NCBI RefSeq assembly: GCF_005484945.1
Contig: NZ_CP034035.1
Location: 2,604,001-2,668,000 of the forward strand
Origin: Brenneria rubrifaciens
GTDB lineage: Bacteria; Pseudomonadota; Gammaproteobacteria; Enterobacterales; Enterobacteriaceae
Direction: 5' to 3'
Length of the DNA stretch: 64,000 nt
Shown: positions 45,363 to 58,294 of the stretch, one piece after another
Position numbering within the stretch: position 1 is the stretch's first letter
Layout of the letters: each line of letters starts with the position of its first letter
The notes under the pieces: model-generated
What the model was told of the DNA's origin: nothing
The model's database searches: none
The model's input: the letters and a program-made list of their open reading frames with translations, nothing else
Made by a program: the position numbers and the translations under genes

Positions 45363-45437
45363 GTCCCCATAGTTAAATGGATATAACGAGCCCCTCCTAA
45401 GGGCTAGTTGTAGGTTCGATTCCTGCTGGGGACGCCA
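45363..45437 (+). tRNA. argW: tRNA-Arg, anticodon CCU
   Basis: 75 nucleotides including an encoded CCA end. Acceptor stem GTCCCCA/TGGGGAC, D-loop AGTTAAATGGATA, anticodon arm GAGCCCCTCCTAAGGGCT-type with anticodon CCT, and T-arm GTTCGATTC. It is almost identical to E. coli argW, a well-known integration site for prophages and P4-type islands. A truncated integrase begins 180 bases downstream. Confidence 0.97.
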
Positions 45438-45616
45438 AATGTTAGCCTACCGAAGTATCTCATAGTCTAGTTAACTCATTATTTTCAAACAATTATCTCC
45501 TTTTTATAGCCTACTCAGATTTATCACGGCCCCTGGAAATCCACGCTGTTTTGTTGGTACATATGTTGGTATGTTTAGTTCGATAATGCATATACCATCA
45601 GCGGAGGGTTTTTAAT
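45438..45616. other. Attachment-arm region between argW and int
   Basis: AT-rich and contains tandem TTGGTA motifs (GTTGGTAC-ATAT-GTTGGTAT at 45553-45572), the kind of arm sequence found beside P4-type integrases. A similar arrangement recurs at 57099-57126, a candidate for the other island end. Confidence 0.55.
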
Positions 45617-45898
45617 ATGGCGCTCACTGAGTTAAAAGTGAGAAATACGAAGCCTGCTGAAAAGCCTGCCAAAATGACAGACGGTAATGGTATGCATCTA
45701 TTGATCACCGCAAGCGGTTCAAAATACTGGCGTGTTCAGTATCGCTTCGGTGGCAAACAGAAAACCCTCTCACTGAGCGTTTATCCAGAGGTTTCACTAT
45801 CAGAAGCCAGACAACAAATTGCCAATAACATCGATCCCTGTGAAAAGAGAAAGGCTGAGGAGAAAAGTTTACCGGGATGCTTACAGAAGAACGAGTAA
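45617..45898 (+). pseudogene. Truncated P4-type tyrosine integrase
   Basis: 93 codons, against about 400 in intact relatives. The N-terminal DUF4102/arm-binding domain is well preserved (LKVRNTKPAEKPAKMTDGNG, GSKYWRVQYRFGGKQKTL, SVYPEVSLSEARQQIANN), then the reading frame switches after CEKRKAEEK to unrelated residues and stops. The catalytic domain is entirely missing. GGAGGG precedes the ATG. A 30-codon frame (45877-45969, MLTEERVKYEKAVLLG) follows directly and may be the tail of another deleted island gene. The island can no longer excise with its own integrase. Confidence 0.92.
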
Positions 45899-45976
45899 AG
45901 TATGAGAAGGCAGTTCTGTTAGGCCAGGTAGATGCTAAAAGCAGAAAGCGTAGGGGGAGACGGCTTTAAATTCAAA

Positions 45977-46483
45977 TCAATCAGTGAATTTTTTTCTCGG
46001 GCGTGTTAACCACTCACTCCACGGTATGTCGCGACCTGGATATGCAGGTTTTTTTATGCCCCAAAATTCAACAACCCAGCTACGAATAAAATTTTCTATT
46101 TTAACAGTAAGATAAGTGCCAGCAAATTTTACATTAAACCAATAATAAATAGCGACATCGCTACCTTCATATAAAGATGGGAAAATATAAACGCACCCAA
46201 TACAGATGCTTTCTTCATCATCCAATATGATATAAGAAAATCCTATGCGATCTTGAAAGTCTTGATAGTCCTCTAATATATAACGAAGATTGTCTTCTCT
46301 ACTATTTATGCCTTCAGGCCAATTGTCAGAGAAAATGTCTCCTAATATTTCTTTACTTGCGATTACAGCATCGTAATCTAAATTCGAATAGACGGGGCTA
46401 AGGGGACGAAGGATGAAAAATTCACCATTTACATACATGGGGACGTTAAAGTCGTCTGGAACTATTTTATTAAATTTAGTCAT
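45977..46483 (-). CDS. GNAT-like acetyltransferase, last gene of island operon
   Basis: 168 residues. The sequence has a GNAT-like layout: N-terminal FILRPLSPVYSNLDYDAVIASKE, a beta-strand pair FSYIILDDEESICIGCVYIFP (beta-4/5 with the GCVYIFP core) and AIYYWFNVKFAGTYLTVKIENFI resembling the acetyl-CoA-binding helix region, though the usual Q/RxxGxG/A loop is not clear. It may acylate an amine of the product or confer self-protection; this is inference. It has AAGAGGTAAGG just before the ATG and begins 4 bases after the preceding stop. Distant GNAT homology should be treated as moderate. Confidence 0.6.
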   Translation of the reverse strand: MTKFNKIVPDDFNVPMYVNGEFFILRPLSPVYSNLDYDAVIASKEILGDIFSDNWPEGINSREDNLRYILEDYQDFQDRIGFSYIILDDEESICIGCVYIFPSLYEGSDVAIYYWFNVKFAGTYLTVKIENFIRSWVVEFWGIKKPAYPGRDIPWSEWLTRPRKKFTD

Positions 46484-46486
46484 GCC

Positions 46487-46726
46487 TTACCTCTTGCGCC
46501 TGAATTTAATGTTACTGAAGGTGTTTTCTAATGATGGCGCCAACGCTGAATATGTCGGACGAGCATAAACTTTGAAAATTGAAAAAAAACACCGTTTACA
46601 AATGTCCAAGTTGTAATGTACATCACCTTCAATATATTCAGCACTGATAATGTCTATTTCAGTTTCGATAGAATCAATATCGCTGATACATCCACACATA
46701 TCACATACTTTTTTTAACTTAATCAT
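46487..46726 (-). CDS. Small CxxC protein of island operon
   Basis: 79 residues from the ATG at 46726, which overlaps the stop of the preceding gene (ATGATTAA); a TTG 18 bases upstream is an unlikely start. Two CxxC motifs (CDMCGC near residue 9 and CKRC near residue 43) could bind one zinc, like a zinc ribbon, or support redox chemistry. No family is recognised. Tight coupling to the ATP-grasp gene suggests a partner of that ligase, but no function can be assigned. Confidence 0.7.
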   Translation of the reverse strand: MIKLKKVCDMCGCISDIDSIETEIDIISAEYIEGDVHYNLDICKRCFFSIFKVYARPTYSALAPSLENTFSNIKFRRKR

Positions 46727-48026
46727 ACAAATACTCTGCTGCAAAGTGTAAGTTAATGCCAGATAATCCGAATGCAGCTCCCTGATGAGCGTTTATAACT
46801 CCTGGTTGCTGAACCCCTATGGCAGCGCGAGTAAGATTTCCTATCAAGTTACCATTAAATGTTATTAATCCATGAACGACCGATGACAGACCTTCTTTTA
46901 CTTTACCATTGCGATCAACAGATTGCATATACGATAACTCACCAATTATCCTTTCTTGGATGACCCATAAATTATCGTCAGATAAAGCATCGTCTAAAGC
47001 TTTTAGCCATTCTTCCTGTTGACACATCCAACTACAAACAATGCCATTTCCACCATATCCTTCTGCTGGTTTAAGTACAAAATCACCATCATGAAATAAG
47101 ACAACATTCGAAGGGTTTAATACTTCACTAGACGGAAAGAGAGCCACTATTTCTTTTGCCTCATTAGCTGCAAGCGAATCTTTCGCATAATCAATAAGAT
47201 AAGGAATAAAGGCTTTGTTTGAAAAAATAAGCTCTCTGAAACCGAGTAAAGATACAATCTCTCCCGATCTAATTTTTTTTAAAAAATGACAGTGGTTTTC
47301 TTGAGTTTCATTCAATTCATACAAATTAAACATGGGGATGAAATGTGTAACGGCATGGCCTTTAAAATAGGTACAATCTTCCTTAAAATTAAAATCATTA
47401 ATTGTGCCGGAAATGTATAATCCAGCTTTTGTTTTGTTCATATTAGAAACGAAATTATGTAAATAGAAATCATATTTATGGTATCCTTCTGTTGTCTCTA
47501 TCACCGGGATTATAGAATTTTTACCAACAGTATCAATGATACCTTTAGCGAGAAAATAAAAAGAATTATCAAGATCGGGAACATCTAAGTTAGAACCACT
47601 TACGCGATAAAAGTTGTTACGAACGTTGTTCATAGAAAAGCCATTTAGCCCCCCAAGGCAGAAACCAGTATTGATTTCAATTACTTTCCACATATTATTT
47701 TCGTAAATGATGTCCCATCTTAAAGGAACTGGCGCCATAACGTTGTCTAGCATAATGTAGTCACCCATCCATTTCGGGATGCCTAACTTTTGTAATAAAA
47801 ACTCAAGATTATCGTAATGATTACTCCAAATTTCATTCATAAGATCCTCAATACGAGAGAGTAATCTCTCCAAGCGTTTTATTTGGTTATGTTCATAGAT
47901 CACCGATGTCAATAACCATTCCCAATCGGGGGAAATAATCCCATGCTCTATGGCTTGGGAACGGATTTCTCTCGCATAACATGTGTGCGTTAATTTATTA
48001 TTCGTATAAGCGATTTTATTTGTCAT
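46719..48026 (-). CDS. ATP-grasp-like ligase, probably circularly permuted type
   Basis: 435 residues. The N-terminal half contains APVPLRWDIIYENN and WKVIEINTGFCLGG, which resemble the metal/substrate strand of circularly permuted ATP-grasp proteins (glutathionylspermidine synthetase-like), and the later part contains DFVLKPAEGYGGNGIV, a glycine-rich ATP-grasp loop, followed by LWVIQERIIG. This order (metal strand before glycine loop) is the mark of permutation. Such enzymes form amide bonds from acyl phosphates; a polyamine acceptor is plausible here. Starts 11 bases inside the desaturase gene with GAGGTGG upstream. Assignment rests on motif reading only. Confidence 0.6.
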   Translation of the reverse strand: MTNKIAYTNNKLTHTCYAREIRSQAIEHGIISPDWEWLLTSVIYEHNQIKRLERLLSRIEDLMNEIWSNHYDNLEFLLQKLGIPKWMGDYIMLDNVMAPVPLRWDIIYENNMWKVIEINTGFCLGGLNGFSMNNVRNNFYRVSGSNLDVPDLDNSFYFLAKGIIDTVGKNSIIPVIETTEGYHKYDFYLHNFVSNMNKTKAGLYISGTINDFNFKEDCTYFKGHAVTHFIPMFNLYELNETQENHCHFLKKIRSGEIVSLLGFRELIFSNKAFIPYLIDYAKDSLAANEAKEIVALFPSSEVLNPSNVVLFHDGDFVLKPAEGYGGNGIVCSWMCQQEEWLKALDDALSDDNLWVIQERIIGELSYMQSVDRNGKVKEGLSSVVHGLITFNGNLIGNLTRAAIGVQQPGVINAHQGAAFGLSGINLHFAAEYLYD

Positions 48027-48909
48027 TGAGCCACCTCTGAATATGGTTAATAGCTAAGTGCTCACTGGTGAGATACTCGCTATTTTCAAGTAAAATTTTA
48101 TGTGCTACATGGTGCTTTTCGACACTTAACCAGGGTAGTAAATGATGTACTAAGTGATAGCCATCAAATCTAGGCATTAAAAGTGCGCTTAAAAAACGAT
48201 TTTTTATAATGAAGTTTCTAGATTTATGTATTGAGCTATCATTATTCAGTAATCCGCCATGATCAAGAACATCAGTAAGATGTTTTTGAATTTGATAGAA
48301 ATAGCAATACGGTACAATGAATAAAAATAGAAACCATAAAGGGAAGCTGAATAGTAAAAATGAAAGAGTCAATACATAGCTCAATCGCACAGCATTAGAC
48401 CAAAAAGGGGCGTCACCATCATAAATAATGAAAAAAAAGGTGTCTTTAATTTGACGTAGAAATAGTGCTTGATGAACATGTCGTAAGACACGGCGGCGAG
48501 TCATTTTTTTATGAAGCCCATATTTACGGATTCCATTAAAATCCATATCTTTATCCATATCACCTAAATGTTTATGATGAGTTAGATGTTCTTTTCTTAT
48601 CAATTTGAATTTTGAAAACTCGGCAATAGCGAAAATTTCCCCAAAAAACTCATTAAGTTTTTTATTTTTACAAAAACTGAAATGAATACATTCATGGGAC
48701 ATATTGTTTATGGCTCTAAACCGTGTGCCGATATAAATTGAAATAAATGGAAAGAGCATATAATAAAAGCTACTAAAAGTGACCGCGCAGCATACTGCGT
48801 AAGCAATAATCCATGGAATGACCATGTTACTAAAAGCAACTAAAAAAGCTTCAAACGTGCCTTTTTTAGTGTTTATTTTCTTTATTTTTTCGACGAGATA
48901 CGCGTCCAT
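48016..48909 (-). CDS. Membrane fatty-acid-desaturase-family enzyme
   Basis: 297 residues, integral membrane di-iron protein. Three histidine clusters are visible: HECIHFSF (about residue 71), HLTHHKHLG (about 108) and YHLVHHLLPW (about 245), separated by hydrophobic helices. The family desaturates or hydroxylates lipid or other alkyl chains using O2. GGAGG lies six bases before the ATG and the preceding permease gene ends one base earlier. A desaturase-like gene also occurs in the phaseolotoxin cluster next to an amidinotransferase. Substrate unknown: the fatty acyl chain, or the polyamine/acyl part of the product. Confidence 0.88.
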   Translation of the reverse strand: MDAYLVEKIKKINTKKGTFEAFLVAFSNMVIPWIIAYAVCCAVTFSSFYYMLFPFISIYIGTRFRAINNMSHECIHFSFCKNKKLNEFFGEIFAIAEFSKFKLIRKEHLTHHKHLGDMDKDMDFNGIRKYGLHKKMTRRRVLRHVHQALFLRQIKDTFFFIIYDGDAPFWSNAVRLSYVLTLSFLLFSFPLWFLFLFIVPYCYFYQIQKHLTDVLDHGGLLNNDSSIHKSRNFIIKNRFLSALLMPRFDGYHLVHHLLPWLSVEKHHVAHKILLENSEYLTSEHLAINHIQRWLNDK

Positions 48910-48910
48910 T

Positions 48911-49681
48911 TCAACCTCCTAATCCATTAAATTTCTTTACAGTAGTTTTGTAAGTAAACAGCATAACAGTGAACATTATAACTGTGCTTAAGAGCAGGTA
49001 TTTTATATTCCATTCATTTTTGTTTAGTAATAAGGACACCGGTAACGATGCTGAAAATGCCACTGGAATTATGAAAAGCATCCATTTCACTATTGATGTT
49101 GGATAAATTGCTATGGGAATAAATGAAAGCTCAAAAATCATCTCATGAAAGTAGTCAACAGGCATTTTTCTACTGGTTATAAAAGTAAAGAAATTAAATA
49201 TCATAAAGAAGAAAAGGTTAATTAAAAAAACGCATAATAGAGATATAAAGAAATATCCCCAGCTCAGCGTAGGATTTAAAAGATTCGGTAATGTAACGAA
49301 GCTATATGCAAATAGTAAAGTAATTAAAAAATTGAGGATGTTAAGTGGTTTGCACCAACCGACAAGAACCATTACCCACACGGATACCGGTTTTGTGAGA
49401 TAAACTTCTATTCTTCCTTCCGCAACATTTTCAAAGAAAGTTTCAATGGAGTTAGTAAAAATACTTAAGAGAAGGCCTAAGAGAATGAAAACAGTAAATA
49501 TTAAATTAACTTCTTCTTTATTGTAAACACCCAAACCACCAGAAAATGATGATATTTGATCGATAAAAACAAACTGAATAAAATAATAACTTAGTGAAAG
49601 GATGAATTCACCCAACAAATTTGTGGTATATGCACACTGCCTTTTAACATTCATTCTGAAGTAATAAATTAAAATATTCAT
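48911..49681 (-). CDS. ABC-2-type exporter permease 2
   Basis: 256 residues from the ATG at 49681, preceded by GGTGGG; a longer frame overlaps the first permease. Six hydrophobic segments (e.g. FILSLSYYFIQFVFIDQ, NLIFTVFILLGLLLSIF, FFISLLCVFLINLFFFMIFNF, LLSTVIMFTVMLFTY). The cytoplasmic FFENVAEGRIEVYLTKPVSVW matches the E-G-R/K-x-E-x-x-LTKP motif also seen in permease 1 (IRKGELEVWLTKPFHY), showing the two are paralogues that probably form a heterodimer. Exports the pathway product by inference. Confidence 0.85.
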   Translation of the reverse strand: MNILIYYFRMNVKRQCAYTTNLLGEFILSLSYYFIQFVFIDQISSFSGGLGVYNKEEVNLIFTVFILLGLLLSIFTNSIETFFENVAEGRIEVYLTKPVSVWVMVLVGWCKPLNILNFLITLLFAYSFVTLPNLLNPTLSWGYFFISLLCVFLINLFFFMIFNFFTFITSRKMPVDYFHEMIFELSFIPIAIYPTSIVKWMLFIIPVAFSASLPVSLLLNKNEWNIKYLLLSTVIMFTVMLFTYKTTVKKFNGLGG

Positions 49682-49682
49682 A

Positions 49683-50477
49683 TTACCCACCTGCGCCGTT
49701 ATAAACATTCATTCCTTTAAACCAAACAATACGAATAATTAAGAAAAACACAAAAATGTAAAATATGCCACCAATTAAAAAATGCAGAAAAACTGATTCC
49801 GCATATGTGGTCATATATTCGGCAGGTGCAGAAATAGTAAAATGATAGGGGTTGTACTTCATTAGCGGCATTAGCCAGTCAGGCCAAAATGATGGAGGTA
49901 AAAGTACACCGCCAAGAAGCGCTGAGCTAAATATACTAAATGAGAGTAAAATATTATATTCAATAACCCAGAAGCAAAGCAATGAAAGGCAGAAAGAAAG
50001 GAGAAAGCAGAGCAACTGAGAAATGATTATAATCATTATTACAGCTAAAAGTGTATATAAAAAAGAAACGTCTGCTTTTTCTGCCTCAAGAAAAGATAAA
50101 TGTCTGATAAAAAACAATACTAACACTGGGATTGTATACAAAATGCTCTCACCGAAGAAAGTAAAGAATCTTTGGGCTAAATAATGAAATGGTTTAGTTA
50201 GCCAGACTTCCAACTCACCTTTTCTTATATGTCCAGAGAGAGTCCGAATCATATCATAACCATTATTCATACGAGATAACATTAATGCAAAAGCATAATA
50301 ATAGATAATGTCATTAAAACTGAAGCTATTTATTTTTCCAGTTTGAGATGAAAATATTGAATTCCATAATATAAGTTGAATAATAAATGGTGAAACAGTC
50401 CCCATAAAGAAATCAGTAAAAAACATTGCTCTATCGTTAACGATAGTAAGTAATCCATTCCTTGAATAGAGGTACAT
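49683..50477 (-). CDS. ABC-2-type exporter permease 1
   Basis: About 264 residues if the ATG at 50477 is used, which gives a length close to its paralogue. The open frame extends to 50558 inside the ATPase gene and no clear ribosome-binding site decides the start. Six hydrophobic segments (FFTDFFMGTVSPFIIQLILW, FHYLAQRFFTFFGESILYTIPVLVLF, FLYTLLAVIMIIIISQLLCFLL in parts, IGGIFYIFVFFLIIRIVW). The motif GHIRKGELEVWLTKP is shared with permease 2. DUF990/ABC-2 family; works with the adjacent ATPase. Confidence 0.83.
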   Translation of the reverse strand: MYLYSRNGLLTIVNDRAMFFTDFFMGTVSPFIIQLILWNSIFSSQTGKINSFSFNDIIYYYAFALMLSRMNNGYDMIRTLSGHIRKGELEVWLTKPFHYLAQRFFTFFGESILYTIPVLVLFFIRHLSFLEAEKADVSFLYTLLAVIMIIIISQLLCFLLSFCLSLLCFWVIEYNILLSFSIFSSALLGGVLLPPSFWPDWLMPLMKYNPYHFTISAPAEYMTTYAESVFLHFLIGGIFYIFVFFLIIRIVWFKGMNVYNGAGG

Positions 50478-50490
50478 GGAAAAGAGGGAG

Positions 50491-51510
50491 TTAGTTAAAC
50501 TCTTTAAACTTAACACGTAGCATTTCCTCAAGTGAAGGTGTTGAAACAGAAAAAGCACAGCTCAGCTCGAATGTCAGCTCCCGTATGAATAGAGGGCAAT
50601 CTGAACGTGAAAGAGAAATACTAAGCTCTAAGTCCTCATCCATAAATTCATTTATTTTAATGTTTACTGACGTTTTACTTGATATTTCTCGAATTTTTGA
50701 TGCGACATAGCTTGGCTCTAATCCATTCCCACAAAATAATGTGATTGAAACAAGTGACGGGACAATTTTTTTTAATTCTTCAATGTTACCATGAAACTTA
50801 TTTTTTCCGTTGTGTAGTAAAATTATTTCATCCACATAACCGTCGATATCGCCCATATCATGGCTTGTTATAATGTAGCTCACTCCTCTCTCATGCTTAA
50901 GTGATTTTAAAAGCTCTCGGATTTCATGTTTAGATGTAATATCTAAACCGATAGTCGGTTCGTCTAAAAATAATATTTTTGGTCTAAACGATAAGTTAAA
51001 CGCAAGTTCGCTTTTAACTCGTTCTCCAAGGCTTAAAAGCCTCACCGGTTTATCCATCAGTTTTTTTAAATTTAGTAAGTCTAAAATCTCTCGTAAATCA
51101 CGTTCAAAAGTGTCACGATCAATTCCATACATGGGTTGTACCATTTCTAAGCTGTTACGCAAAGGCAAGTCCCACCACAAGCAGTTTTTGTGACCAAAAA
51201 CTACGCCTAAATTTTTAAAAATATCTTTCTTTTTTTTATATGGATCTGTATCTAAAACTCTAACGTCACCTAAATCTGCACGTTGAATTCCAGATAAAAT
51301 TTTGATAAGTGTTGACTTCCCTGCGCCATTTGGACCGAGAATAGCCAAAGACTGCGCTTCATAAAGCTTAAAACTAAGATCTTCGATCACTTTATGTGAT
51401 GTGTAAGTAGGCCGAATTAAGTCTTTGATTCGGCCGCTTACTCCAATACTATTGAATTTACTTCGATAAATTTTAGAAACATTTCTCAATTCTATCAGCG
51501 GAGCCGTCAT
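50491..51510 (-). CDS. ABC exporter ATP-binding protein
   Basis: 339 residues. Walker A GPNGAGKSTLIK (about residue 60), signature LSLGERVK, Walker B ILFLDEPTIGLD and H-loop YIITSHDMGD are intact, so the ATPase should be active. The C-terminal 110 residues form an accessory domain typical of NatA/CcmA-type ATPases serving ABC-2 permeases. Its ATG overlaps the stop of the ATP-grasp gene (ATGA). With the two permeases it should export a product of the surrounding pathway; it may also give self-resistance. Confidence 0.93.
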   Translation of the reverse strand: MTAPLIELRNVSKIYRSKFNSIGVSGRIKDLIRPTYTSHKVIEDLSFKLYEAQSLAILGPNGAGKSTLIKILSGIQRADLGDVRVLDTDPYKKKKDIFKNLGVVFGHKNCLWWDLPLRNSLEMVQPMYGIDRDTFERDLREILDLLNLKKLMDKPVRLLSLGERVKSELAFNLSFRPKILFLDEPTIGLDITSKHEIRELLKSLKHERGVSYIITSHDMGDIDGYVDEIILLHNGKNKFHGNIEELKKIVPSLVSITLFCGNGLEPSYVASKIREISSKTSVNIKINEFMDEDLELSISLSRSDCPLFIRELTFELSCAFSVSTPSLEEMLRVKFKEFN

Positions 51511-52730
51511 TGCTTTACTCCTAATGTAACATTGTAATTCTCAATCACTTTTTTATATTCTCTATTAATAAGACTGGGTTTACCTGAAAAAATGAACATG
51601 CCTAAACAATCTTTATGATTATAGAATTCTCCACTGGCTATTTCGTCAATTTGTGCGATTTTAAATACTTTCAGTGAGGTTAATTCTTTTAAATTTGGAG
51701 TGGAAACATGAGTCACTTTTTTCGGTACTAAAGAAAGATGATCTTTAGGGTATAATAAGTAGGCATAACCAATGTCTTTATCTGTACAAACCAGCTTCGA
51801 TACCACACCTAATTGTGCTGCTAAATGAATAAGTCTGAGATCAATACCGTAAGTATGTAAGATAGCATCTGTAATTGGCCCCCCTCCTGGGCGGAAAGCA
51901 ATTTCAAGAAGCGATGGCTCTTCTATACCCTCAAATGCTTCAACATGGTAGACCCCATCTGGAAAAGTGAATGCACTTTTCAGTTTTTCAGTAAAAGGCA
52001 ACCACATTGATTGAACTTCATTGTGCGGTACAGAAATGCCCCCTAAAACTTTACCTTTTAAGTAATCTAAAGGGCTACCTTGATATGCACCGACAGATAT
52101 AAATACAATTTTTCCATAAAGCACAACGCAATCTATGTGAAAGATATCTTGACTATTATATTCTTCAATTAAAAACTGTCCTGCATCCATATCTCGATAA
52201 TTATCGGAAACTCCTTTTAGCTCAGCAGGTAACTCCGATAAATTATAAATCACGGAAACACCGACAGCGCCAGCAAGAGAACGGGGCTTCAGCACTACGG
52301 GTAATTTAACTTTTTGCTGTAATACATCGCTCAGATGAAATTCCTCGGGGGTTGATATTTTATGATGTGAGGCAATAATTTTCATCAGTTGCTTGTCTCT
52401 AAACTTTCTTGCATCCTCACATTTTAAGCCTGGAAGCTTCAATCGTTCGCGGGCATAGGCTGATACGAAAAGAGAAAATTCATCATTCGAAATCACCTCA
52501 TTTATCTGATGTAAGGCTAGAATTTTTTCTACAACTAAGGCAACGTCAGTATGAATAGCAAAATCTTTTATAACATAAATGTTATGACTTTCAATGATTT
52601 CTCCGGATACCGTAAAATCTTCGATGAGAAAAACAAATTCATATGATGCGATATTGTATTCTTTCTTCAAAGATTTGATCTTTTCCAAAATGTCTAGCTC
52701 GCATGAAACTAATAATATTTTTTTCATCAT
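51507..52730 (-). CDS. ATP-grasp carboxylate-amine ligase
   Basis: 407 residues with the standard ATP-grasp order: N-terminal pre-ATP-grasp domain (MMKKILLVSCELDILEK), ATP-binding strand KLPVVLKPRSLAGAVGVSVI, FLIEEYNSQDIFHIDCVVL, and the metal-ligand region PSLLEIAFRPGGGPITDAILHTYGID (equivalent to the ExNxRxGG motif). Such enzymes (L-amino-acid ligase/BacD-like, PurK-like) join a carboxylate to an amine. In the hsv/phevamine type pathway an ATP-grasp ligase couples amino acids to amidinated spermidine, so an equivalent step is likely here. It begins five bases after the PaaK-like gene. Confidence 0.88.
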   Translation of the reverse strand: MMKKILLVSCELDILEKIKSLKKEYNIASYEFVFLIEDFTVSGEIIESHNIYVIKDFAIHTDVALVVEKILALHQINEVISNDEFSLFVSAYARERLKLPGLKCEDARKFRDKQLMKIIASHHKISTPEEFHLSDVLQQKVKLPVVLKPRSLAGAVGVSVIYNLSELPAELKGVSDNYRDMDAGQFLIEEYNSQDIFHIDCVVLYGKIVFISVGAYQGSPLDYLKGKVLGGISVPHNEVQSMWLPFTEKLKSAFTFPDGVYHVEAFEGIEEPSLLEIAFRPGGGPITDAILHTYGIDLRLIHLAAQLGVVSKLVCTDKDIGYAYLLYPKDHLSLVPKKVTHVSTPNLKELTSLKVFKIAQIDEIASGEFYNHKDCLGMFIFSGKPSLINREYKKVIENYNVTLGVKQ

Positions 52731-52734
52731 TGAT

Positions 52735-54117
52735 TCAGCATTTATTGATTACAGTTCTTCTTTTATAACTTTTCTCAGGTGGAATCTGGTCAAGTTTTAT
52801 CGGAAAAACAAAGACTTTATGTGTAAAAAGTTTGCTAAGATGATACTGAAAAGCTTCGAATACACTACTATCTTGATTGATATCTATATTATGGCAAACA
52901 TAAAGTACTTCGACGCGGTCTGGGGCGAGTTGTACCACTCGGAACTCTTTAATATTGCTATTTTCTTGACAAAAGAAACGTTCAACCGCGTCCAGTATGC
53001 TGCCGGGTGGAATAGTTTTACCATCAAGTGTAGTAAGCCCTTGATCAGCCCTGCCGTGTAATTTTTTCAAACGTTTAAAATGACTCCCACAGGTGCAGCG
53101 ACCTCCATTATCTTCCATTTCACAAAGATCGCCTTGCTCATATCGAATCATAGGCATTGCTTGATTCCATAAATCTGTACCTACAATTTCTCCTACTCCA
53201 CTACCATCGTAGTTAATAACTTCTAAATGAACATCGTCTTCAACTACATGATAGTGTTTATCTATACATTGCATAGCCATAATATCGAGTTCTTCTGATG
53301 AGTATTCGTCCCTAACTGGAACTCTAAAAATACTTTCGTAACGATCTCGCTCTTCTTGTGTCGTAGTTTCTGAGTTCGTTGTTATTAATTCTACTCCATG
53401 TATGTCCAGCCTTTCACCCAGTACGGCTAATTGTTGGAGATAACTACCTATCGAAGAAATGACCTGTGGTCTTAGATACTTTATGTGTTTCATGGCATAA
53501 AAACCAGGGCAGTCCTGACTTAGAGTAAATACTCTATAATCTCCCAAAACTGATGTATGCCACCAAACGCAATAATGAATATTGTATATCCAGCGAGCGG
53601 GATCTAGCCTGCGGTCTGACATAAATTCAAACATGCGGTATTTATGTAGTATATCCAGGTTTGCACGATGCTGTGGCAATATTATCTGCACTTGCTTTCC
53701 TGAAGAGCCGGAGCTACTCATCCAACGACATTTGGATGGATCGTATTTATCAGATGGCATGCCAACTGGGAAATTTGCGATTACATCGTCTTTGTTAATA
53801 GTCGGCAATGACATAAAATCTTGGTAAGACCGTATTGCCCCCAGTTCGTAACCACACTTTTGATACTTATCGCGATAGAATGGCGAAGTCGTAAACGCCC
53901 AGTCTACTAAGGCGCTTAGTCTATCTAATTTCCATGCATCGAGTTTGTCGCGGTCAAGGGTGAGCCTTTCAATAAAGTCATTATATTCATTGTCCAGCAG
54001 TTCCTTCATTTCTGTTTGACGTTCAACGCTTTCAATTCCTAAAGGTTCAACCTCCGCATGTCGAATAATTGTTTGAATTCCACCATGATGTTCACGGACA
54101 TTATAGATATCAGACAT
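52735..54117 (-). CDS. PaaK-like adenylate-forming enzyme
   Basis: 460 residues of the phenylacetate-CoA ligase/coenzyme F390 synthetase family. Phosphate-binding loop CRWMSSSGSSGKQVQI (about residue 135), DEYSSEELD (A5-like), MPMIRYEQGDLCEM and CTCGSHFKRLKKLHGRADQG (family Cys motif and A8-like region) are present. It should activate a carboxylic acid as AMP ester, perhaps as thioester or directly for transfer. No carrier protein gene is in the operon. The start overlaps the amidinotransferase stop by eight bases (ATGTCTGA). Confidence 0.9.
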   Translation of the reverse strand: MSDIYNVREHHGGIQTIIRHAEVEPLGIESVERQTEMKELLDNEYNDFIERLTLDRDKLDAWKLDRLSALVDWAFTTSPFYRDKYQKCGYELGAIRSYQDFMSLPTINKDDVIANFPVGMPSDKYDPSKCRWMSSSGSSGKQVQIILPQHRANLDILHKYRMFEFMSDRRLDPARWIYNIHYCVWWHTSVLGDYRVFTLSQDCPGFYAMKHIKYLRPQVISSIGSYLQQLAVLGERLDIHGVELITTNSETTTQEERDRYESIFRVPVRDEYSSEELDIMAMQCIDKHYHVVEDDVHLEVINYDGSGVGEIVGTDLWNQAMPMIRYEQGDLCEMEDNGGRCTCGSHFKRLKKLHGRADQGLTTLDGKTIPPGSILDAVERFFCQENSNIKEFRVVQLAPDRVEVLYVCHNIDINQDSSVFEAFQYHLSKLFTHKVFVFPIKLDQIPPEKSYKRRTVINKC

Positions 54118-55210
54118 ACGATTTCAGGCTTCCATTTCGTTTAACATCAAGTGTGGCACAGTGAAACGAACCACCGAATGTTTGAAAGTGTTTAAAAGGG
54201 CATAAAATGGTTTTAAATCCCCATTTATGAAACGCAGACCGTAACAACTCTTCGTCTTTTTCCACAATAACGGTTCTTTCATCAAGCATCAGAACATTTG
54301 TATGAATCCATTTTGATGTCATGAAAAGAGGATGCGAATCATCGAGTGTTGAGGGCGGCGGGGTAAGTATTTCCCAGTCTTTAAAAATGTCTGGGATTTT
54401 TGAAACCCAGGCCTTATTTACTAAAACTTTTCCAGGCGCTAATGGAAGAATTGTTGTATCAATATGCATTGGAGATGCATCATCAAACTCATATATGTGA
54501 ATTCGATAATCTTCACCAAGCGTTCTACGCAGCCACTCAATTCCTTTGTTATTAGTAACATGGCTTCGTTGTCCAATAATATCTTTGCCCATTTTCATAA
54601 AATCAGCCGCGTCAAAAACAGGTTCTGATTCGTTGATCACTGAGCTAAATTTTTCCTCTTGCTCACAATCATGATCAGGTTTCCAAAGCGAGTCTTTAAG
54701 CATTGGTTTTGGGGCGGCCAGCCATTCAGCTCCATTAGAAAAATAATCATTCAGGATTTCTCGAAAAGAAAACGTTTCAAAATACCGACTTCTCCATGCC
54801 ATCGGCACTTCGATGATCTTTTTACCTACTGCAAATAAGCAATCACGAGGCATTGCAGAATAAAAACCACCACCAGTAGTGAAATGTGGTGTCATAATAG
54901 TTTTGTGATGGTTTACTTGTTCTGGCCTACGGACTCTTACTCCTTCACTCTTAAGAATATCAGCCAATTGATTGACTTCTTTTTTGGCTAGATTAATGAG
55001 TTCTTCAGGGAAACGCCCTGCGGCATTCTCCTTAAAAAAATTTTTTGATTTTTTTGGGATGACGGCATCAAGCCCGGCATCCCATTCAGGAATGCGTATA
55101 TCATCTATGATACCAACGATGACTTCTTCAAGTGGATCCCATTCGGTATAAACTTCTACGGGACTTTTATTCGAATAAAATTGAGGAACTTCCTCTGTTT
55201 GAAAATCCAT
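54110..55210 (-). CDS. Amidinotransferase (AGAT/HsvA/AmtA family)
   Basis: 366 residues from the ATG at 55210 (GGAG upstream; a GTG two codons earlier is less well spaced). Close in sequence to vertebrate arginine:glycine amidinotransferase over the core: FDAADFMKMGKDI, QRSHVTNNKGIEWLRR, SPMHIDTTILPLAPG (catalytic His) and GGSFHCATLDVKRNGSL (catalytic Cys, about residue 351). It moves the amidino group of arginine to an amine, giving a guanidine and ornithine. Bacterial relatives include AmtA (lysine acceptor, phaseolotoxin) and HsvA (polyamine acceptor, Erwinia). With speD/speE-like genes immediately upstream a polyamine acceptor is the best inference. Confidence 0.94.
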   Translation of the reverse strand: MDFQTEEVPQFYSNKSPVEVYTEWDPLEEVIVGIIDDIRIPEWDAGLDAVIPKKSKNFFKENAAGRFPEELINLAKKEVNQLADILKSEGVRVRRPEQVNHHKTIMTPHFTTGGGFYSAMPRDCLFAVGKKIIEVPMAWRSRYFETFSFREILNDYFSNGAEWLAAPKPMLKDSLWKPDHDCEQEEKFSSVINESEPVFDAADFMKMGKDIIGQRSHVTNNKGIEWLRRTLGEDYRIHIYEFDDASPMHIDTTILPLAPGKVLVNKAWVSKIPDIFKDWEILTPPPSTLDDSHPLFMTSKWIHTNVLMLDERTVIVEKDEELLRSAFHKWGFKTILCPFKHFQTFGGSFHCATLDVKRNGSLKSYV

Positions 55211-55224
55211 TTTCACTCCAATAA

Positions 55225-56082
55225 TTAGTTATTGTTGCGTAAAGTAAACGGTACTATTGTAGATTTGATTATTGATTGGCTATCAATAAATTTCGGTTTA
55301 TATGAAAGTTTGTTTAGTTTTTCTATCATTCTTTCAGCAGCGTTATTACATTCAAAGTTAGATCCTACTAGCCAAACCCAGTTTTGCTCTTCCATTTCAA
55401 AAAAAACTGTACTCTTAAAGCTAGATTGATATCTTTTAAGGGAATTACGTAAAGTGTTATTCCTCCACCAAGTAGTACATCCCGCTTGAGAGATAAATAC
55501 ACCTTCTTCAGATAGAAGACTTATGATTTTTTCATTAAACGTAGAAGTATACAGACGATTCTGTTGTGCAGAATCTTCTTGCTCATCAGGCAGGTCTAAT
55601 ATAATGATGTCGTACTTATCATTCCTCTTTGCTGCCTCCTCTATGAATTTGTATCCATCATCGATTATAAGATGGATGGGACCTTTTTTTTCTTTATATA
55701 ATCTGACTTCTTCACTACTATAACCGTAAGGTAAGTATTTGGCACAAGCTTCTACACATTCAGCATCAATGTCTACATGGGTAACTTTTTTGGCTCCCAA
55801 TTCAAGAGCGAGTTTGCTAATTACGCCTTCACTCGAACCAATAACTAATACGTTTTCAATTTTTCCGCAAAACAAAGCTGCTGGAATAATTTGTCCCTCA
55901 TGATAAATAAGTTGTGATTCTTCGACGCTTTGTCTTTCATTATTGCAAAACAGGCTTATACCTTGTCCCGTCTTAGCTATTACCATCGACTGATAAGGTG
56001 TTTCTTTTTCAAATATAATTTCGTCGAGATCCCATACACGGCTAACACCTTTTCCAATAGGTTCAATTATTTTTTCAATCAT
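55225..56082 (-). CDS. Divergent polyamine aminopropyltransferase (SpeE-like)
   Basis: 285 residues from the ATG at 56082, overlapping the speD-like stop (ATGATTGA) with GGAG nine bases upstream; a GTG at 56097 is the alternative. Spermidine-synthase fold: small N-terminal beta domain, then SQLIYHEGQIIP (YHE of the family), VLVIGSSEGVISKLALELG replacing the usual GGGDG loop, THVDIDAECVEACAKYLP, IIDDGYKFIEEA and ILDLPDEQ with the catalytic DxxD. Substitutions around the substrate sites suggest a changed amine acceptor. It would transfer aminopropyl groups from decarboxylated SAM. Confidence 0.87.
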   Translation of the reverse strand: MIEKIIEPIGKGVSRVWDLDEIIFEKETPYQSMVIAKTGQGISLFCNNERQSVEESQLIYHEGQIIPAALFCGKIENVLVIGSSEGVISKLALELGAKKVTHVDIDAECVEACAKYLPYGYSSEEVRLYKEKKGPIHLIIDDGYKFIEEAAKRNDKYDIIILDLPDEQEDSAQQNRLYTSTFNEKIISLLSEEGVFISQAGCTTWWRNNTLRNSLKRYQSSFKSTVFFEMEEQNWVWLVGSNFECNNAAERMIEKLNKLSYKPKFIDSQSIIKSTIVPFTLRNNN

Positions 56083-56467
56083 TATTTGTTTCTCCACGAA
56101 TGATGCAAGTTGAATGAACTTTTTTAGGTTTTAAAGCTTTTTCTATTTGTTGAATAGCTACTTTTGGGTCGCAATCCCCACAAGTGAATATATCGACAAA
56201 GGCAGCTGTGTGACTTGGATATGTATGAATAGAAGCGTGAGATTCTGATAAAAGAAGTAAGGTTGTTACACCTTCGGGATAAAATTTATGAGATGTTTCG
56301 TTAAGAATTGTTGCTCCACAAACTTCTACTGCGTTTCGCATTATCTCTGAAAGGTAATTCTCATCATTAAGTAATGAATCCTCAACCCCGTAAAACTCAG
56401 CGAAAACATGATTTCCATTGAACGAGAAACCGGAAGAATCCTTTTTATCCGTTAACATTGTAAACAT
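56075..56467 (-). CDS. S-adenosylmethionine decarboxylase proenzyme (SpeD-like)
   Basis: 130 residues, small prokaryotic (Thermotoga/Bacillus) type and not the larger enterobacterial SpeD. Self-cleavage site Glu75-Ser76 in LLSESHASIHTYP yields the pyruvoyl group; His81 and Cys96 (FTCGDCDP) keep the spacing (5 and 20 residues from the serine) known for the processing and proton-donor residues. It makes decarboxylated SAM, the aminopropyl donor for the next gene. First gene of the 12-gene operon. The start at 56467 has GAGGG very close; the ATG at 56458 is possible. Confidence 0.94.
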   Translation of the reverse strand: MFTMLTDKKDSSGFSFNGNHVFAEFYGVEDSLLNDENYLSEIMRNAVEVCGATILNETSHKFYPEGVTTLLLLSESHASIHTYPSHTAAFVDIFTCGDCDPKVAIQQIEKALKPKKVHSTCIIRGETNND

Positions 56468-56518
56468 ACTCCCTCAAACTTTAACCATTGGAATTAACTA
56501 TTGTTTACATTCGTGCTA

Positions 56519-56547
56519 CTTTTATCAGCATGAAAATTTCTCGTCAA
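56519..56547 (-). promoter_or_regulatory. Candidate sigma-70 promoter of the island operon
   Basis: On the minus strand TTGACG (-35, 56542-56547), exactly 17 bases, then TAAAAG (-10, 56519-56524). This leaves a leader of about 45 bases before speD. No HrpL box was found between here and 57.4 kb. Confidence 0.6.
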
Positions 56548-57382
56548 ATTAATTTTATATTTTTTTGAATGATTTTCAGGGCTATTTATGTAACATGTTA
56601 ATTATTATAATATTATTTTTTCGCGGCAGGCGCTTAACGTTGCATCTTAATTATTTATTTTGAAACTGATTTCACGCTAATCAATTGCGAGCTAACTTTA
56701 ATCCATATATGAAAGATAAAAAGTTAAGTTCGTATATACGCACTTGAAATTGAACTCATTGAGATCATGAGTTAAAAATTTTTTTTAATAATTTATAGAT
56801 ACCTTTATCAGCAATTATCCCCTGCTCCACATTGATCAACACTCTATGATGTCAGTAATATCTTCATCTGACCCTTGTCCATTGCGGCAGAGCTGATTTG
56901 ATGGGTTCGGCAATTTCGTCGTCTGTTCCGCTCCCAGGCACAATCTAATAGAGCGGTTTTCTCACATATGGCAGACATTACTGTTGAAACGTAGGCCTCA
57001 TGCCTACTGCCGACTCCCTGCACCATCATTCGTTAGATAGAGTATAATCGAGGTGATTTTTCCAGCATGAAACAACTGTTTTAGAAAGAGGGTTTTTTGT
57101 TGATATCATTGTTGGTATAAATGGTTATACCTTTATTTTAACCTTATAATTTATAGAATTAAAATTTCGTTCGACTTCGCAGGATCACACTTCTCCCAAC
57201 GTCTACCGCCGTCGACAAATTCCATCTGATATAGCTTTGCACGCCATTATCAAAGAAGCGATCTCTGTATTGCCGCGAGGAATCAGAATGGCGCGAAGGA
57301 TGCGGGATTTAATCTGAAAGGGCAGGAGGACATCAGCACATGATATATCCATGCGCGATTATCCTTCTGGCCTCTTTTCTGC
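56548..57382. other. Right end of island: degenerate AT-rich DNA
   Basis: 835 bases with no intact gene. Strongly AT-rich up to 56820, then a 230-base patch (56830-57060) of higher GC with coding-like fragments in several frames but early stops, probably the wreck of a mobile-element or island gene. An integrase-arm-like repeat is at 57099-57126. Near 57151-57225 a 24-codon minus frame (MEFVDGGRRWEKCD) and around 57245-57320 a plus fragment look like gene debris I cannot identify. Confidence 0.5.
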
Positions 57383-58294
57383 TTACGCTTGCCTTTTACG
57401 CAGACGAGCAATCTGGTTGACGATAAACAGCACGACGGCACCGACGATCAAGCCAATCACCAGATTGGCCACATTGGAAATCAGCACCGCGACAAGACCG
57501 CCAAAACTGTCGCCAAAGGTGGTGATGGCGTGATAAAGACGGGGTATGCCATGAACCACAATGCCGCCACCGACTAAAAACATCGCCAGCGTGCCCACCA
57601 CGGAGAGCACTTTCATCAACCAAGGCGCGGCAACCAACAGGCCGGCCCCGACTTTTTGCGCCACGACGGATGACCGTTGTTCCAACCACATGCCCAGATC
57701 GTCCAGTTTGACGATACCCGCCACAATGCCATAGACGCCAACGGTCACCAGTATCGCAATCCCCGACAGCACCATTACCTGATTAAGTAGCGGCGCTTCA
57801 GACACAATCCCCAGCGTAATTGCAATGATCTCGGCCGAAAGGATAAAGTCTGTACGGATCGCGCCTTTCACTTTGTCGCTTTCATACTCCGCCGAATCAG
57901 CTTGAGCCGCCGCAAGCAGGCGCTGCTGCCGGGCTTCTGGCGTATTCTGATTTTTGTCGCGGTGCAGGCTATGCACCACTTTTTCCACTCCCTCATAACA
58001 AAGATAGGCTCCCCCGACCATCAGCAACGGCGTGATCGCCCAGGGGATGAACGCGCTGATGAGCAACGCAACCGGCACCAGAAAAACCTTATTTAGAAAC
58101 GAACCTTTCGCTACGCGCCAGACCACTGGCAGTTCACGATTCGCCGTTACCCCACTTACCTGTTGCGCATTCAGCGACAGATCGTCACCCAATACGCCCG
58201 CCGTCTTCTTAACGGCCAATTTCCCCATGACGGATATATCATCCAGCAACGTAGCGATATCATCCAATAGCGTCAGTAAACTTGCTCCAGCCAA
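57383..58294 (-). CDS. yedI: DUF808 inner-membrane protein YedI
   Basis: 303 residues (E. coli YedI 305), conserved polytopic membrane protein of unknown function. Starts [24 protein letters not shown], followed by a long soluble segment with [19 protein letters not shown], then several hydrophobic helices and a short basic C-terminus (ARLRKRQA). ATG at 58294. The small gene just upstream ends 11 bases before it. In E. coli yedI is at another locus. Confidence 0.9.

Follow-up and report, generated by a model that had tools for sequence, protein, structure and literature searches.

A 64,000-nucleotide stretch of the Brenneria rubrifaciens genome (contig NZ_CP034035.1, positions 2,604,001 to 2,668,000, hereafter the window) carries at positions 45977..56467 a 12-gene operon that probably constitutes a unit of the hsv (phevamine) kind, gained by horizontal transfer and serving both biosynthesis and export. 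Phevamine is a suppressor of plant immunity. The arguments for this reading are the identity of the amidinotransferase with HsvA, the kinship of one ligase with HsvB and HsvC, the predicted fold of a second ligase, the additional speD and speE genes of foreign type, a gene order repeated in three of three Photorhabdus copies, signs of purifying selection, nearly empty integration sites in related genomes and the retention of motifs.

The operon consists of 12 open reading frames (ORFs), all on the minus strand and arranged head to tail with intergenic distances of -68 to +8 bases, which bears out, at the same coordinates, the tightly packed operon proposed in a first-pass annotation of this DNA. 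From 5' to 3', the genes encode SpeD-like and SpeE-like proteins, an amidinotransferase, a PaaK-like ligase, an ATP-grasp ligase (ligase 1), an ABC ATPase, two ABC-2 permeases, a desaturase-like enzyme, a second ligase (ligase 2), a CxxC protein and a GNAT protein. That annotation had read the gene set as a pathway for a guanidino-polyamine conjugate, a view sustained in outline by the classes of the enzymes, their HsvA member, the HsvB/HsvC kinship and the ligase 2 fold, all supported by sequence or predicted structure; it has to be amended in that the closest system is hsvABC, and it can do without the analogy to phaseolotoxin drawn there. Pfam and NCBIfam scans of the 12 proteins gave no carrier or condensation domain of nonribosomal peptide synthetases (NRPS) or polyketide synthases (PKS). 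The same scans missed the amidinotransferase, produced only weak ATP-grasp matches for ligase 2 and returned nothing over cut-off for the CxxC and GNAT proteins.

The amidinotransferase matches HsvA (PDB 5wpi, E 6.2e-195), SxtG (8.9e-100) and human AGAT (1.6e-98), and contains the motifs FDAADF, MHID and HCATLD, whose Asp, His and Cys, all kept, are presumably the AGAT triad positions; match and residues together place it in the AGAT/HsvA family. It is 74-77% identical to the HsvA proteins of hsvABC loci, and 248 of 368 alignment columns are invariant between three cluster HsvAs and five of the nine hsvABC HsvAs, the two groups being separated by 27 fixed differences. The genome gave a single match above the family cut-off for a type III secretion gate, but no second HsvA. 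The anticipated activity on polyamines gains support from this membership and from the title of a later publication, in which HsvA is termed a polyamine amidinotransferase.

Ligase 1 shares 39-45% identity with both tandem ATP-grasps in all nine hsvABC-type loci and matches the L-amino acid ligase 4wd3 (E 2.6e-12); these identities and a 14-row tree indicate that it is kin to HsvB/HsvC. Elsewhere in the genome, no second ligase of this type was detected at E 1e-5. The predicted fold of ligase 2 is that of enzymes coupling acids to spermidine (the glutathionylspermidine-synthetase, or Gsp-synthetase, fold), a second-look structure comparison being made with VIA-align, and this agrees with the polyamine conjugate proposed in the first-pass annotation. 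It belongs to a small family of its own, of which seven relatives were found. Residues R103, E117, N119, K271 and K319 are invariant in 10 sequences and may, by analogy, be its ATP/Mg and lysine residues. As for the PaaK-like ligase, it matches PDB PaaK 4r1l (E 1.8e-19), reaches 96 bits against NF045666 (cut-off 300) and has the motifs SSGSSG, EYSSEE, YEQGDL and KSYKR, which we take to be signatures of adenylate-forming ligases.

These assignments bear on an alternative in which the amidinotransferase acts on an amino acid (e.g. lysine, giving homoarginine), with a small peptide as product and speD/speE serving another step; a reading of this sort was proposed early for the P. syringae hsv operon (excerpts of PMC3879358). 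The alternative is very unlikely, as a later publication names HsvA a polyamine amidinotransferase (by title), phevamine A is described as containing a modified spermidine (PMC7343908, in part), and both the adjacency of speDE and the Gsp-synthetase-like fold of ligase 2 point to polyamines.

The predicted polyamine-supply genes have been confirmed as extra copies. The cluster SpeD scores 121 bits against PF02675 and 119.6 bits against TIGR03330 (cut-off 75.65), with an LSESHAS motif at residue 73, and the cluster SpeE carries the spermine/spermidine synthase domain (PF01564, 72 bits, cut-off 22.9). A native speE-speD pair lies elsewhere in the genome (2936265-2937487), the native SpeD match (C1:2937290-2937487) falling within a 266-aa frame. 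The cluster pair is of a different, foreign type: the acceptor loop reads DLPDEQ..QQNRLY in the cluster SpeE and DCTDPIGPGESLF in the native one, so that the canonical DxTDP-type motif is absent from the former (DLPDEQ, versus native DCTDPIGP), and the cluster-type loop is conserved in the three Photorhabdus copies. The nearest solved enzymes (7xif, E 2.5e-25; thermospermine synthase) have loops starting DLTD and DLAD. Since the loop is unlike that of native SpeE and thermospermine synthase is among the nearest solved enzymes, the acceptor of the cluster SpeE may not be putrescine.

Against a non-putrescine acceptor, the conservation of HsvA between cluster and hsvABC would fit the same polyamine substrate. 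This conservation also speaks for a cluster that makes essentially a phevamine-type compound, with speD/speE boosting the spermidine supply and the other genes confined to minor tailoring and export. Such a restricted role is rather unlikely, because the cluster has a single HsvB/C-type ligase, its second ligase has a different fold, the PaaK-like, di-iron and GNAT proteins are extra and conserved, and the SpeE loop differs from that of the native spermidine synthase.

The remaining proteins are predicted to serve mainly in tailoring and export. Among named proteins, the di-iron enzyme is closest to GntB (NF041365, 93.4 bits, below the equivalog cut-off of 380), and its histidine boxes, at 72, 108 and 252, are retained in the three Photorhabdus copies. 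The ABC ATPase, with Walker A/B and signature-like motifs, scores 169 bits against TIGR01188 (cut-off 312). Both CxxC pairs of the small protein are retained in two Photorhabdus copies, and a zinc-binding accessory role is possible; tailoring or self-protection is proposed for the GNAT protein.

The scheme for the operon is inferred in all its substrates, the order of its steps, its product and the role of the latter in host colonisation or competition. SpeD would produce decarboxylated S-adenosylmethionine, from which the SpeE-like enzyme would transfer an aminopropyl group to a diamine or other amine, yielding a polyamine beyond or additional to what the native genes supply. An amidino group from arginine would then be placed on one polyamine end by the HsvA-type enzyme, while ligases 1 and 2 would couple the free amine(s) with amino acids or some other carboxylic acid. 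Hydroxylation or desaturation, either of the guanidine-bearing chain or of an amino acid unit, could be the task of the GntB-like enzyme; the PaaK-like enzyme could activate a further acid, the GNAT protein could transfer an acyl group or protect the producer, and the ABC-2 transporter would export the product.

The genomic setting is that of an island (Table 1). The operon genes have a GC content of 31-40% (24-35% at third codon positions, GC3), versus 44-58% in 2-kb windows outside the island. Both flanks were matched in all nine genus genomes compared, in G399 only partly. In two of the eight other genomes, G398 and G396, the flank matches are only 63 and 303 bases apart, so about 11.7-11.9 kb appears to have been gained in the lineage of the window or lost in these two. 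The distance is about 3.2 kb in G399, 3.8 kb in G400, 7.3 kb in G395 and 18 kb in G394; separate contigs hold the two flanks in G397 and G401, and the G397 alignment runs through part of the integrase. The site between tRNA-Arg and DUF808 (window 45437-57383) is therefore variable within the genus, from 63 bases to 18 kb, and this variation, together with the G397 alignment, makes the tRNA-Arg gene look like a recurrent insertion point. At the right border, no attR copy of the tRNA end was found among repeats of at least 16 bases.

Table 1. Operon genes and bordering features, in window coordinates.
Feature	Position	Strand	Basis
SpeD-like S-adenosylmethionine decarboxylase, 130 aa, short B. 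subtilis type	56075..56467	-	PF02675, TIGR03330
SpeE-like aminopropyltransferase, 290 aa	55225..56097	-	PF01564, nearest solved chain 7xif
HsvA-type polyamine amidinotransferase (predicted), 368 aa	54110..55216	-	PDB 5wpi
PaaK-like adenylate-forming ligase, 460 aa	52735..54117	-	PDB 4r1l, motifs
ATP-grasp ligase 1, 407 aa, HsvB/HsvC kin	51507..52730	-	identity to hsvABC ligases, tree
ABC exporter ATPase, 339 aa, DrrA-like	50491..51510	-	PF00005 85 bits
ABC-2 permease 1, 291 aa from the first start (an internal start is possible)	49683..50558	-	PF06182 65.7 bits
ABC-2 permease 2, 265 aa	48911..49708	-	PF06182 78.7 bits
Membrane di-iron oxygenase/desaturase-like, 297 aa, GntB-like	48016..48909	-	PF00487 87 bits
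ATP-grasp ligase 2, 435 aa, predicted glutathionylspermidine-synthetase fold	46719..48026	-	
Small CxxC...CxxC protein, 85 aa by first start	46487..46744	-	no family match
GNAT-fold acyltransferase, 168 aa	45977..46483	-	
tRNA-Arg(CCT), island left border	45363..45437	+	ARAGORN
Phage-type integrase, truncated, 93 aa, arm DNA-binding domain only	45617..45898	+	PF13356 69.9 bits
DUF808 gene bounding the operon on the other side	from 57383		

One scan of the named genome collection yielded 12 loci with HsvA. Three of them, all from Photorhabdus (L002, L003 and L013), match all 12 genes in the same order. In the other nine, from Pseudomonas, Erwinia mallotivora and Pantoea stewartii, HsvA precedes a pair of ATP-grasps, both similar to ligase 1, and none of these loci has a listed match to the other ten cluster genes (ABC ATPase matches below 120 bits were filtered, and several loci stop at contig ends). 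By protein records, relatives of ligase 2, the PaaK-like ligase or the GNAT protein occur in Erwinia pyrifoliae, Erwinia sp. Ejp617, Pectobacterium brasiliense, Pectobacterium colocasium and Photorhabdus. The gene set is not restricted to the window genome, being repeated in Photorhabdus and, judging by these records, in Erwinia and Pectobacterium. The relatives in P. brasiliense (ligase 2, PaaK and GNAT, 173882) and in E. pyrifoliae (ligase 2 and GNAT, 4122351) come from sequence records of equal size, which suggests that in each species their genes are located together.

Within the genus, HsvA was found in one of nine genomes, that of the window itself. At E 1e-60 it was present in eight of 392 family genomes, the window genome included, with the remaining seven 37-63% identical; this sample evidently misses the Photorhabdus carriers. 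The surroundings of the eight matches were compared with the 12 genes, ORFs being listed in four of the eight longer stretches (L037, L038, L039 and L041), and further cluster genes occurred only in G620 (L031). In plasmid records, HsvA matched 33 (three from Pantoea at 74%, 30 under 60%) and PaaK one (35% identity). No close copy of PaaK was found outside its own genome in order- and class-level samples (11 of 394 at E 1e-20, the other ten 25-30% identical; one of 369 at E 1e-50), which evidently miss known carriers such as Photorhabdus, and E. coli genomes gave no near match.

Several HsvA-like genes have other surroundings. A decayed cluster relative, with partial or interrupted speD, speE, HsvA and ABC pieces, was seen in G620 (L037:468-4034). 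A different locus (L038:5888-10185, L039:5186-9384) combines an HsvA-like gene (51-54%) with genes for a membrane protein, a HilA-like dioxygenase and a protein resembling, by eye, an EamA-type exporter; in the scan, covering the L038 copies only, the membrane protein was beta-carotene-hydroxylase-like at just 17.8 bits and the dioxygenase scored 113 bits. Another HsvA-like gene (L041:9201-10301, 50%) has neighbours that differ from both. In addition, 14 phage records (H22-H35; Campylobacter, Enterococcus and Synechococcus) contain amidinotransferase-like genes of 23-31% identity.

Comparison of the window with L003 revealed synonymous differences near or past saturation. The corresponding nonsynonymous distances (dN) were 0.12 for HsvA, 0.20 for PaaK, 0.22 for SpeE and 0.28 for GNAT, 0.31-0.41 for SpeD, the oxygenase, the ABC ATPase and the permeases. 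The ligases gave 0.49 and 0.54, and the CxxC protein reached 0.74. Such values against near-saturated synonymous differences indicate that the cluster is under purifying selection, weakest for the CxxC protein. Upstream of the operon, by contrast, the similarity to Photorhabdus was not convincing (best E 0.04).

Two further alternatives can be judged in this context. That the island is a decaying remnant making nothing could be argued from the truncated integrase, the decayed relative in G620 and the interrupted genes in two Photorhabdus records; it is highly improbable for the window genome, in which all 12 ORFs are open and every motif looked for is kept. Even less probable is a role in polyamine stress or detoxification, in which excess polyamine would be modified and exported and no bioactive secreted compound made. 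An operon with genes for polyamine production, two ligases, an oxygenase and an adenylating enzyme would be costly for detoxification, and the distribution of the island is patchy.

A number of observations weigh against the proposal of an hsv-kind biosynthetic unit. Its chemistry and product are predictions from the genes. The PaaK, GntB and DrrA matches fall far below equivalog or subfamily cut-offs, and the GNAT consensus, judged by eye, lacks a clear canonical acetyl-CoA signature. The SpeE loop, compared with that of native spermidine synthase, makes spermidine uncertain as the intermediate. Two of the three Photorhabdus copies each have one interrupted gene (the amidinotransferase split between frames at L013:10001-11100, and the CxxC gene with an in-frame stop at L002:18496-18741), the interruptions being either real or assembly errors. 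In the 940 bases upstream, two patterns of the hrp box consensus gave no match, although a diverged or more distant box is possible. Finally, the fast change of the ligases was considered as a sign of species-specific amino acids and set aside as weak evidence, because the same gradient exists within five of the nine hsvABC loci (pairwise identity 0.87-0.98 for HsvA, 0.64-0.96 for HsvB and 0.57-0.92 for HsvC).

In the accessible part of the literature searched, phevamine A is the sole metabolite tied to HsvA enzymes. In this operon, HsvA chemistry seems to have become part of a larger island-borne unit, self-contained in that it brings its own exporter and polyamine supply, and the orphan protein family to which ligase 2 belongs may act as polyamine ligases. 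Usual cluster finders may well overlook such an operon, since no NRPS or PKS gene was found in it. The cluster seems to be common to plant-pathogen genera (Erwinia, Pectobacterium) and the insect pathogen Photorhabdus, and the window genome is related to plant pathogens. Tentatively, it might specify a new class of secreted molecules, in which a cluster-made polyamine other than spermidine undergoes amidination and oxygenation and is linked to acids by two ATP-grasp ligases unrelated to each other, one of them from a Gsp-synthetase-like family not recognised before, for use by plant- and insect-pathogenic enterobacteria on eukaryotic hosts.

With regard to known systems, the first-pass annotation knew of no described cluster with this gene set. 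The literature, mostly free-access papers and without the biosynthetic gene cluster databases, likewise offered no description of speD, speE and HsvA with these ligases, but a closest relative does exist, the hsvABC/phevamine operon, of which the cluster is a larger variant. A paper on saskemycin, consulted in part, proved unrelated. In E. pyrifoliae DSM 12163, hsvABC reportedly lies beside hrp genes (PMC2827408), and the main text of that paper mentions neither spermidine, amidino, polyamine, CapK nor desaturase. GntB, the transmembrane L-arginine hydroxylase of the guanitoxin route (PMC10367076, in part), resembles the cluster di-iron enzyme as its best named relative, which nevertheless scores far below the equivalog cut-off.

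Ligase 2 differs from glutathionylspermidine synthetase, trypanothione synthetase and the YgiC-YjfC ligases in being only 10-14% identical to them, and at 435 aa it presumably has no room for the amidase domain of the E. coli glutathionylspermidine enzyme. Edeine, an NRPS product, is a longer peptide containing unusual amino acids, whereas no NRPS domain was found in the cluster operon. Yet edeine also contains guanidinylated spermidine in a peptide conjugate (excerpts of PMC5960728 and PMC11903750), and its producer has an N-acetyltransferase for self-resistance (EdeQ, from a paper title), comparable to the cluster GNAT. With the hsvABC loci of Pseudomonas, Erwinia and Pantoea, the cluster shares HsvA and one ATP-grasp of the HsvB/HsvC kind. 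It is not classed as an hsvABC operon because it has one such ligase where all nine hsv loci have two in tandem, and HrpL control is unproven; rather, it appears to be a larger variant of the hsv/phevamine kind, one that also has speD, speE, a PaaK-like ligase, a Gsp-fold ligase, a di-iron enzyme, a CxxC protein, a GNAT protein and an exporter.

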